Shown here: positions 1 through 62,301 of the stretch, piece by piece
Numbering within the stretch: position 1 is the stretch's first letter
Layout of the letters: every line of letters starts with the position of its first letter
Source: Marinoscillum pacificum
GTDB lineage: Bacteria; Bacteroidota; Bacteroidia; Cytophagales; Cyclobacteriaceae
Length of the DNA stretch: 62,301 bases
Direction: 5' to 3'
Assembly (NCBI RefSeq): GCF_024714495.1
Contig: NZ_JAMZMJ010000022.1
Location: 1 to 62,301, forward strand
The notes under the pieces: model-generated
The model's input: the letters and a program-made list of their open reading frames with translations, nothing else
What the model was told of the DNA's origin: nothing
Databases searched by the model: none
Made by a program: the position numbers and the translations under genes

Positions 1-84
1 AACCACATGATGTTTGAAAGACGCTCGATAACCTGAGCCTGATTTGTATTTTACCAAGTCATTTGACTTTTCTTGTTTATCCAT
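1..84 (-). CDS. Possible IS transposase OrfA, N-terminal 28 residues only
   Basis: An open frame begins with ATG at position 84 on the minus strand and runs off the left edge without a stop. The 28 visible residues start MDKQEKSNDLVKYKSG and end FKHHVV. A short basic start ending in FK..VV resembles the beginning of helix-turn-helix OrfA proteins of IS3-type elements. The sequence just upstream looks like an IS end, which supports this reading. The fragment is too short to be sure, and it could be an unrelated gene start. Confidence 0.4.
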   Translation of the reverse strand, partial: MDKQEKSNDLVKYKSGSGYRASFKHHVV

Positions 85-122
85 TTTTGACACTGTTTGT
101 GTCAACCTATTTCAGGACCTGA
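1..122 (-). mobile_element. Left-edge insertion sequence end (probable IS3-type), element continues outside window
   Basis: Read on the minus strand, 117-100 is TCCTGAAATAGGTTGACA, which matches 62187-62204 on the plus strand at 16 of 18 bases. It is followed inward by a perfect 7-bp inverted repeat, TTGACAC-N5-GTGTCAA (87-105), and then by the start of the candidate OrfA at 84. An inverted-repeat end, a short leader and a small ORF is the usual left-end layout of IS3-family elements. The exact outer boundary near 118-122 is a guess; the stop codon of the neighbouring giant gene lies inside this end. Confidence 0.5.
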
Positions 123-32283: not shown

Positions 32284-32635
32284 ATCATTACTGATTATAG
32301 CCATTTTGACATTTATTGGAGCTTGTCAGCAAGAAGAAAGCAAACGATCATTATCTGACAAACTTGAAGAAAAGCAGGAAATACTAGAAAAGAAGATTGA
32401 GTCACTAAAGTCAGACTCTAAGAACCTGACTGGAGATGCTAAGCGTCAAGTAGAAAAGGCTATCGCTCAAATTGATAACGAAAGAGATAAATTAAAAAGT
32501 CTAATTCGGAAAGTAAAACGCTCTTCTTCTAAGGATCTAAAAAAGGTTGAAAATGAAATTGAAGAAAGCTTTGAAGATTCTAGTAAGCAAATAGAAAAAT
32601 GGATAGACCAAGCTTCCAAATCATTGAAAAATTAA
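32270..32635 (+). CDS. Coiled-coil lipoprotein
   Basis: 121 residues. The lipoprotein signal is LLIIAILTFIGAC (cysteine about 19). The mature part is almost entirely charged heptad-like helix rich in K, E and S (DKLEEKQEILEKKIESLK and onward), a predicted coiled coil. It overlaps the ArsC-like gene by 14 bases and is closed by a bidirectional terminator. Function unknown; a Lpp-like spacer or stress lipoprotein is possible. Confidence 0.75.
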   Translation: MKTVKSLLIIAILTFIGACQQEESKRSLSDKLEEKQEILEKKIESLKSDSKNLTGDAKRQVEKAIAQIDNERDKLKSLIRKVKRSSSKDLKKVENEIEESFEDSSKQIEKWIDQASKSLKN

Positions 32636-52432: not shown

Positions 52433-52758
52433 ATTTTCAATAAATAGCGTGTGTTGAAAATGAGTGTCAAGAACTTAATCCGCATGGGAAAATTATCTAT
52501 CTGCGCCTGGCAATCACTCATCCACTGATTTTGGTTAATCCTTAAGTAGGCAATAAATACTTCATCTGCTACTAGACGTTAATAGTAAATACATTTCTGT
52601 CCAAAAACCTATCTCTTCAAGGTGCATAAAATGTGAAATTCCGTTATTTTGGAGGAATGAAAAGGCCAACCCTCTATAAAAAGAACATAGGTTATTTCAT
52701 ATTTAAAATAACATGATCGGTCATGTTGTTACGATATTGTGTGTTATATGACTGCCTC
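52433..52758. other. Gene-free region upstream of the NACHT gene
   Basis: 326 bp without a convincing gene if the NACHT start is 52759. It holds a short block of the 21-bp repeat family (52474-52536) and then AT-rich sequence. No clear terminator for the sugar isomerase gene or classical promoter is visible. Confidence 0.6.
52474..52536. repeat. Short copy of the 21-bp tandem repeat family (about three units)
   Basis: Three consecutive 21-base units. The first contains atccgcatgggaaaat and agrees with unit 61982-62002 at 17 of 21 positions. The second contains gcgcctggcaatc and agrees with unit 62003-62023 at 14 of 21. The third starts actcatcca. The two unit types alternate in the same phase as at the right end of the window. 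A weaker fourth unit (ggcaata) may follow with a 2-base shift. Confidence 0.6.
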
Positions 52759-61281: not shown

Positions 61282-61743
61282 ATGTTTTTAAGCCATAAGT
61301 CAAAATACAGCACCTTCCTTTCTGAAGATGAAATTGAAAAACGATTTAATCATTTGCTTACAGAATCCATGATCTCCAATGAACAAAAATTCAGTGGTTA
61401 TTTTGACAAACACTATTTCGTTATCAATGACAATGAACCATCAAAATTCGGTGAACCAGCTACTATTGAAGGTAGAATTCTAGAAACATTTAACAGAAAA
61501 ACTGTTCTTGAAATCACTACTACAGCACGTGCTAAAAGTGTTATACAGTTTGCATTTATTCTTTTGAGCTTACTAATATTAATCATCTTAATGAGTCTAA
61601 AAGTTGTACCAGTTCCTTTAGATACTATTGGCTCTATTCTCACATCAGTATTCATGATTTCTGCGCTCATCATTGCGATGAGAATTCAATATTACTCACT
61701 CAAAAGAATAGTAATATCTACTTTGCAACTTGAGAAAAGTTGA
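61282..61743 (+). CDS. Small membrane protein of unknown function
   Basis: 153 residues. A soluble N-terminal part of about 90 residues (YFDKHYFVINDNEPSKFG) is followed by two membrane helices (about 92-108 and 115-135) and a short basic tail. No family is recognised. It is divergent from the LuxR regulator, and the shared inverted repeat lies in between, so it may belong to the same regulon. Confidence 0.7.
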   Translation: MFLSHKSKYSTFLSEDEIEKRFNHLLTESMISNEQKFSGYFDKHYFVINDNEPSKFGEPATIEGRILETFNRKTVLEITTTARAKSVIQFAFILLSLLILIILMSLKVVPVPLDTIGSILTSVFMISALIIAMRIQYYSLKRIVISTLQLEKS

Positions 61744-61897
61744 TGAATTCAATTATAAGATTGGTTAGCCACATCTGGTGTACCAACTGAGATATGTCAA
61801 GTGTCACCAAATGATCTTTACTTTATTTTTATACTAGTCGAATTATTATAGACACTTGCCCTGTCTGCAGCGTCAGTGAACTCCAACAAAGGCAAAC

Positions 61898-62191
61898 ATT
61901 AATCAGCATAGAAAAATCATATGTCCGTATCTGGCAATGATATATCCGCATGAGAAAATCATATGTCCGTATCTGGCAATGATTTATCCGCATGAGAAAA
62001 TGACCAAAACGCTCCTAGCAATCACATAAACGCATCCGACAATAATTCATCCGCATGAGAAAATGACCGAACCGCTCCTGGCAACAACAAAAACGCATCC
62101 GGCAGTTACATAAACGCTCTCGACAATCGTATAAACGCTGACGGCAATGATAAAAACGCATCAAGCAGTCGTAAAAACGGGACCCATCCTA
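61898..62191. repeat. Degenerate tandem array with strict 21-bp period (14 units)
   Basis: Fourteen consecutive units, each exactly 21 bases, begin at 61898, 61919, 61940, 61961, 61982, 62003, 62024, 62045, 62066, 62087, 62108, 62129, 62150 and 62171 (the last is degenerate). There are two unit types: one with atccgcatgagaaaat (units at 61940, 61982, 62045) and one with a variable acgcatccggcaatg core (most others). Units 61919-61960 and 61961-62002 are a near-perfect 42-bp duplication. The phase is unbroken and there are no spacers. All six reading frames have stops. Confidence 0.85.
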
Positions 62192-62301
62192 AAATAAGTT
62201 GACAGATTATTACTTAATACTAGATGTAGTTTACAATGATACTACAAAGTCCTATTTGCACTTTACAGAGATTACTTTAATCCTGATTGAAGTATACAGG
62301 C
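62182..62301 (-). mobile_element. Right-edge insertion sequence end, element continues outside window
   Basis: 62187-62204 reads tcctaaaataagttgaca, matching the minus-strand IS end at 117-100 (16 of 18). The preceding bases are gacccA. If the element extends to the right, its transposase would read leftward; a frame ending VYFNQD-stop (stop at 62279-62277) fits an OrfB end but is too short to judge. Identification rests mainly on the shared end sequence. Confidence 0.4.

Follow-up and report, generated by a model that had tools for sequence, protein, structure and literature searches.

BrickBuilt of Porphyromonas gingivalis is described, in the part of the source drawn on here, as an intergenic 23-nt minisatellite inside a MITE that has a leader and a tail, and MITE464/PgRS, with 41-nt repeats, is named alongside it (PMC4596501). 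REP sequences, in the excerpt of the source used, are intergenic repeats that are preferred insertion sites of particular insertion sequences (ISs) (PMC1525189). TAACTGA heptamer repeats are reported from Beggiatoaceae, Cyanobacteria, and some Bacteroidetes, and in the genome chiefly studied, the cited sections place most of the 7-mers immediately upstream of start codons (PMC4679880). The simple repeats covered by the consulted portion of PMC4060949 have units of up to 11 bp. No account linking 21-bp arrays to the ends of IS3 elements was found in the open-licence literature searched. The array considered here lies near one end of a 62,301-nucleotide stretch of Marinoscillum pacificum DNA, called the window, which is the whole of contig C14 of that genome (G000), and it stops 122 bp short of the contig end. 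Like TAACTGA repeats, as far as the cited sections describe them, it consists of intergenic direct repeats and occurs in Bacteroidetes; unlike them, it is built of degenerate 21-mers, and arrays of its kind have no fixed gene context.

Autocorrelation of positions 61901 to 62200 gave a self-identity of 0.57 at lag 21 and of 0.62 at both lag 42 and lag 63, and no other lag of 1 to 69 rose above about 0.32 to 0.33. The last third of that region on its own peaked at lag 21 (0.58), and among 280-bp segments taken every 20 bp across the 62 kb, those on the array had the highest lag-21 score. The 21-bp period read from the letters alone in an earlier note was thus borne out, and no other part of the window gave a stronger signal of this kind. 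Lag-21 identity was also raised at positions 32353 to 32541, more weakly (0.51). Twenty-one base pairs correspond to two helical turns of DNA. The consensus unit was about AATCATATAAACGCATCTGGC, and that of the family was CCGC-N3-CGGCAATCA. Mean pairwise identity over 12 units was 0.62, in agreement with the wide variation of single bases noted before. Moreover, no open frame ran through the array, which was intergenic and contiguous, and the earlier reading of it as non-coding and free of spacers held. A CRISPR array was rejected, as contiguous degenerate 21-mers were found and not near-identical repeats with unique spacers between them.

Table 1. Positions in the window of the array, its internal duplications, and the neighboring features
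Feature	Position	Strand	Evidence
153-aa ORF, nearest upstream gene candidate, without Pfam match	61282..61743	+	
Dispersed repeat AGCGTCAGTGAACTCCAACAAAGGC a short way 5′ of the array	61869..61893	+	four genome places at ≤3 mismatches
Degenerate array, 21-bp period, ~12.6 units	61915..62179	+	autocorrelation, unit listing, Tandem Repeats Finder (TRF; period 21, 12.6 copies), scoring versus related arrays, consensus
Higher-order 42-bp duplication (two units), 97% match	61913..62001	+	TRF
Higher-order 63-bp duplication (three units), 87% match	61977..62101	+	TRF
Candidate 3-bp target-site duplication ACG at unit core AAACG|C	62177..62179	+	flank triplets; in-register empty site
Right terminal repeat of IS3-like element, GGACCC...TTGACA, outward TGTCAACTTATTTTAGGATGGGTCC	62180..62204	-	same end at five contig ends
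Subterminal part of IS right end, repeats ~31 bp apart, cut by contig end	62205..62301	-	sequence; lag 31/62 in related M. furvescens (G001) end

The extent and composition of the array differed in part from the first description. Fourteen blocks had been proposed; the period of 21 holds over the tabulated interval, and the last block, from 62180, belongs to an IS right end that had been missed. The block to the left of 61915 fits the unit weakly, at 5 of 10 core positions. The two alternating unit types that had been proposed were found at the left only, in the 42- and 63-bp duplications, and GGCAAT-like and GAAAAT-like units did not alternate array-wide. As these duplications comprise two and three whole units, they indicate growth of the window array by whole units. 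By eye, a related array in a congener (G003) is likewise preceded by a hairpin-like element similar to AGCGTCAGTGAACTCCAACAAAGGC.

At position 62180 the outer part of an IS begins, and the contig end cuts it off. The same right end was also present at contig ends C22, C26, C29, and C2, and arrays of the window family were found at three further contig ends: the end of C22, the end of C4, and the start of C26. C14, C22, and C26 all enter the same terminal sequence, and C4 enters a left end (outward TGTCAACCTATTTCAGGACC) that has the start of an ORF on its inner side. Thus, the arrays of this family sit at contig ends because of the repeated element there. At its start, too, C14 lies within a left end of this IS (C14:8-122, minus strand; window 1-122), and the whole 62-kb window therefore lies between two IS copies. 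In total, six left and five right ends of the element were found in G000, together with two more left ends of a second element that were 83% alike. The outward flank triplets were TTC, ACC, TTC, AGT, ACG, and GTT at the left ends and GAA, GAA, CGT, GGT, and CGT at the right ends, such that four of the six left ends had a complementary partner, as a 3-bp target duplication requires; the AGT (C7) and GTT (C3) left ends had no matching right end in G000. The ACG triplet of the window array was matched at the left end on C4, and C26 has the same triplet. Further triplet pairs fitting 3-bp duplications were found in Marinoscillum furvescens (G001; CCA) and in G004 (ACT and CCG).

The rve transposase core had no match in G000 or G001, and the transposase gene of their IS copies is therefore unassembled, for which reason these copies were assigned to IS3 by their similar ends. 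L102, a complete related element of G003, contains two ORFs and an rve domain; its OrfB scored 240 bits against NF033516 (cut-off 160) and 70.5 bits against PF00665, and its left ends are 80% alike over 51 bp to those of the G000 IS. Moreover, the 25-bp IS ends with complementary 3-bp flanks have the terminal inverted repeats and target duplications of the IS3 family. Judged through L102, the element adjoining the window array is IS3-like. In this IS group, right ends carrying repeats at a spacing of about 31 bp (three helical turns) were seen in Marinoscillum and, with a spacing of 62 to 63 bp, in two other Bacteroidota bins (L059 1-390, L134 1-110, and L166); these repeats are possible subterminal binding sites.

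The left end on C4 could be partnered by triplet with either C14 or C26, and both joins restored the register. Joining the C4 and C14 flanks gave identities of 0.31, 0.62, and 0.33 at lags 20, 21, and 22, and joining those of C4 and C26 gave 0.33, 0.56, and 0.30. In G003, an array whose first part is 69% identical over 147 bp to the window array lies beside the same kinase/response-regulator genes (79% over 3.27 kb), at a distance of 4.4 kb, versus 0.8 kb in the window. As the gene content in between differs, the place is a variable spot. By eye, the right side of the G003 array meets another right-end-like sequence, outward TGTCAACCTGCTTTAGGATTAAT. Because the array is kept in a syntenic place of a congener and the IS flanks rejoin in register, we conclude that the array is older than the present IS copy. 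Nor is it part of the IS, since array sequence flanks one copy on either side and, among the matches listed, the majority of right ends from other genera have no array.

A search of 98 genomes with the window array (E ≤ 0.01) gave matches in four: its own genome, the congeners G001 and G003, and G092, the last over 21 bp only. The G001 right end, used as a query against G000 to G005, matched in three of the six (G000, G001, and G004). In G001, a 21-bp array followed 15 of 16 distinct right-end tips, a count that includes the weak L082 and L084 and also L077, where the array begins after a 29-bp palindromic stretch; the sixteenth tip, L085, has just 116 bp left before the contig end. By eye, the G001 units formed about seven families without mutual resemblance, examples being CATCCGCACCCGGCAATCATC, TTGCACGGGTGTAAAACTCAA, CGGAAGCCTCCAACCAACGGA, and TTGCAG followed by freely varying bases. 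An array of 20- to 21-bp units followed all three right ends found in G004, the first TRF unit lying 25 to 60 bp out, and in two of its loci (L089 and L095) right-end-like sequences are followed by a left end after about 90 bp. In G000, three of five right ends were followed by an array. Of the left ends, one of six in G000 (C4) faced an array, and one of two in G001 (L382) had a lag-41 segment some 180 bp away; at the five left ends that the related element has in G003, none was seen by eye. In raw counts, with C4 and L382 as the left-end cases, right ends are thus much more frequently array-facing than left ends are.

Outside the genus, most right-end matches among those listed had no array. 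Eighty-one right-end pattern matches were present in 80 listed loci (of at least 118 found), and 5 of the 76 scorable matches among these had lag 21 among their three best lags at ≥0.5, two of them in Marinoscillum. In L119 (Ekhidna), lag 21 was at 0.52 when a shorter stretch was scored, and solely on the side of the right end. The congener G005 had no match to either IS end and no 21-bp array in 400 kb, and G002 likewise had no match to either end. In the uncultured Bacteroidetes bin Umea1 0439, 21- and 42-bp arrays with differing units were found away from a right end (L134 7131, L146 3592, and L223); the arrays of that bin in L134 3488-3752 and L221 are within or next to open frames, and part of their sequence may be coding. 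We conclude that 21-bp arrays are not strictly bound to the IS.

Apparently repeated modules were also seen in G000. At L055 1-1700 (the start of C26) and L056 15690-16111 (the end of C4), an array is followed by a promoter-like stretch that is 79% alike between the two, and by eye a different ORF follows in each; this looks like a recurring module made up of a hairpin, an array, a promoter-like stretch, and a gene. A non-coding array of 41-bp period at G000:C22 139862-140138 has no IS end nearby and, by eye, has TTTGGG..CCCAAA halves.

The reading we lean to, tentatively, is that the arrays are phased, sequence-diverse 21-bp minisatellites on which an IS3 element lands. An old non-coding minisatellite would grow by whole-unit duplication, keeping its period of 21 while its letters drift, and the window array would be one of a class of locus-specific 21-bp arrays in genomes of the Marinoscillum group. 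The element would insert at the conserved unit core, in most cases oriented so that its right end faces the array, and leave 3-bp target duplications. In G000, an IS copy would have split an array of the window family, leaving the window on one side and the left-end side on C4 in register, and old right ends would persist as truncated relics. Target choice, by the transposase alone or by a candidate host protein on the phased cores, may be the cause of the association, and selection may keep the spacing. Insertion anywhere within arrays would put both ends beside arrays, and the rarity of left ends there counts against the arrays as landing sites. So do the unpaired C7 and C3 left ends of G000 and the truncated solo right ends in G001, the latter left unexplained by simple insertion. 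Moreover, core sequences differ between families, and no single sequence-specific recognizer therefore explains all of them.

The position of the core relative to the tip was determined by cutting the flanks of 18 right-end junctions into 21-mers, with the first unit left out, and locating the most conserved 6-bp window of each. The conserved core started within -3 to +2 bp of the IS tip in 16 of the 18: 13 of 15 in G001 (the exceptions were L076 and L086) and 3 of 3 in G000, with the array running in the opposite direction. A Rayleigh test gave p = 0.018 with one value per family (n = 8) and p = 0.0016 over the 15 G001 junctions. The binomial probability of 16 in 18, 1.6e-7, is based on a six-phase window chosen after looking and treats each related array as a separate case, when members of one family are not independent; both points weigh against the use of arrays as landing sites.

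The register is also what would be expected if the right end itself generated the arrays, by repeated duplication of about 21 bp of flank, such that the core would be the first flank and the period would reflect transpososome geometry. We regard this as unlikely but as the main rival, because it explains differing cores with one period, arrays that start at the tip, and polarity, and accounts for the cores and the polarity better than landing sites do. It is also consistent with the core being at the tip in 16 of 18 junctions, with tips repeated at 20, 22, and 41 bp (L125, L068, and L047) and loosely at 33 bp (L112), and with the absence of both IS and arrays from the G005 DNA searched. However, the 41-bp tip repeat is explained by insertion of a further IS copy next to an older tip, with CCA as the target duplication, and the 20- and 22-bp repeats may be the same, which weakens tip duplications as proof of array writing. 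Further against it, the window family predates the present IS insertion, arrays of Umea1 0439 lie away from any right-end match (L134 7131 and L223), and most right-end matches elsewhere, among those listed, are without an array. Generation by the right end thus accounts neither for the window array nor for arrays lying at a distance from IS ends. A remaining lead is insertion at a spacing of about two or four helical turns from an earlier tip. An equally doubtful reading is a landing strip that is specific for helix phase and blind to sequence, in which an IS3-family right end reads, or itself writes, the two-turn period in flanking DNA, whereby unrelated sequences would turn into 21-bp arrays with the conserved core placed at the tip. 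If so, the array would record transpososome geometry and not sequence recognition.

The frequency of period 21 depended on the DNA sampled. Among TRF rows with at least 4 copies, 47 had a period of exactly 21 and none had 19, 20, 22, or 23, in a set that is enriched for IS ends and contains duplicate records and overlapping rows. In less selected DNA, periods of 21, 41, or 42 were found for 5 of 8 non-coding arrays in 480 kb of G001, for 2 of 2 in 862 kb of G000, and for 11 of 20 in 118 loci, where five of the 11 are Marinoscillum records. Periods 20, 22, and 23 appeared once each over all sets of this less selected DNA. Order-mates sampled regardless of the IS (720 kb, nine genomes) had one array of period 21 among five non-coding arrays, and 21-bp arrays were therefore rejected as a general feature of the order. 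From their distribution over the sampled genomes, the arrays are confined to certain genomes, mostly with this IS group.

Constraint was tested for 31 of 38 arrays, 7 being dropped for too few units, against 120 neutral tandem-growth simulations each. Column conservation was more uneven than in the simulations in 19 of the 31 (p ≤ 0.05), with the other 12 fitting neutrality (p > 0.05), and a contiguous 6-bp core stood out in 20 (p ≤ 0.05). The window array had columns more uneven than in all 120 simulations, and its contiguous 6-bp core was not significant (p = 0.13). Compared with three stretches of orthologous intergenic DNA, which had 6 indels to 47 substitutions, nine arrays of the window family were indel-poor, at 13 to 409 (p = 0.013), and the ratio was 4 to 355 (p = 0.0005) when the degenerate C4 array was left out afterwards. 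Over all 38 arrays, indels were not rarer than in orthologous intergenic DNA (108 to 1,550 substitutions; p = 0.16). Moreover, pairwise comparison of non-array IS-end copies within G001 gave equally few indels (22 to 1,083 substitutions), and the same IS-end stretch compared between G000 and G001 gave 25 to 355. With the indel and core tests mixed, constraint on the spacing is suggested rather than established. The earlier claim that the period is maintained thus draws on the uneven columns of the window array and the few indels of its family and is set back by the core test, the 38-array comparison, and the indel-poor IS-end copies. We conclude that selection for the 21-bp spacing is only partly supported.

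Two other explanations were weighed. In one, the arrays are phased binding sites of a nucleoid or regulatory protein, unconnected with the IS, which then lands on bent or accessible DNA; two helical turns per unit, uneven columns in 19 of 31 arrays, and few indels in the window family are consistent with it. We nevertheless consider it rather improbable, as one genome contains many unrelated cores, gene context is not fixed among the 38 arrays, and none occur in 400 kb of the congener G005. In the other, which we rate marginally lower again, a chance 21-mer was amplified by slippage and is decaying neutrally, with the IS link due to hitchhiking or a hot spot. Whole-unit duplications in the window, the 12 arrays that fit neutral simulations, indels that are not rarer over 38 arrays, and the equally few indels of the G001 IS-end copies all agree with neutral decay. 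It is opposed by the 47 TRF rows at period 21 with none at 19, 20, 22, or 23 (in the IS-enriched set), by a core in register with the IS tip, and by the order-mates, in which one of five arrays at period 21, a small number, gives no hint of a general slippage preference.

Other origins and functions of the arrays were considered. A decayed heptad-repeat coding origin, offered earlier as an alternative, was rejected, as no open frame crosses the window array and a codon-phase pattern was found in 0 of 31 arrays at p < 0.05 (window, p = 0.99). Dyad or palindromic units were likewise rejected, as only 3 of the 38 consensus sequences reached about p = 0.05. At gathering thresholds, Rfam gave just RNase P and one tRNA in the window. 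The window array folded worse than dinucleotide shuffles (z = +3.1 and +2.2) and unremarkably against column-permuted arrays (z = +1.2 and +0.6). Across arrays, 62 strand tests against column-permuted arrays gave a mean z of -0.28; four arrays (L134 7131, L071, G000 C22 139862, and L068) folded better than the permuted null, with z of about -2 to -2.9 (-2.3 and -2.0 for C22 139862). No fixed gene context was found for the 38 arrays, which lay between convergent (5), co-directional (11), divergent (9), or unclassified (13) genes.

Two further dispersed sequences were observed. The intergenic motif CATTCCTCCAAAATAACGGAAT occurs at window positions 52586 to 52662 and other places, including beside arrays in C22 and G003, and has 18 matches in G000, 10 in G003, and 13 in G004 at E ≤ 1, many of them short. 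A dispersed hairpin, TGTTGGTGN..CACCAACA, has several copies in G000 and G003 (L006 1470-1530, L013 1600-1660, and L062 9345-9419) and is REP-like. The flanking hairpin was also considered as a possible attC-like site.

Tandem arrays are usually defined by a common sequence, and those described here are defined by a period of two helical turns across unrelated sequences, with a transposon end in register with their conserved core. If the association reflects target choice, spacing and not letters would define the arrays as a natural target of transposition; if it reflects array formation, it would be a transposon-driven source of bacterial minisatellites. Like members of the IS3 family (NF033516), the element has terminal repeats and 3-bp target duplications, with two ORFs with an rve domain in L102; it appears to differ from them in its right-end repeats, spaced by about 31 bp, and in the way its insertions face arrays. 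Like REPs as characterized in the excerpt cited, the arrays are intergenic repeats that would be preferred IS sites; REPs are palindromic, whereas the present units are not dyads and share a period rather than a sequence (PMC1525189). Like BrickBuilt, as presented in the part of the report used, they are spacer-free intergenic tandem arrays of Bacteroidota with an IS-end-like flank and several copies per genome. BrickBuilt is described there as having one 23-nt unit sequence and leader and tail terminal inverted repeats most like an IS5-family ISPg (PMC4596501), whereas the present arrays have a period of 21, locus-specific units, and an IS3-like right end as flank; no shared distal end or tail repeat was seen when distal array flanks were read by eye, unaligned. 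We conclude that the present arrays resemble both BrickBuilt and IS-targeted REPs.
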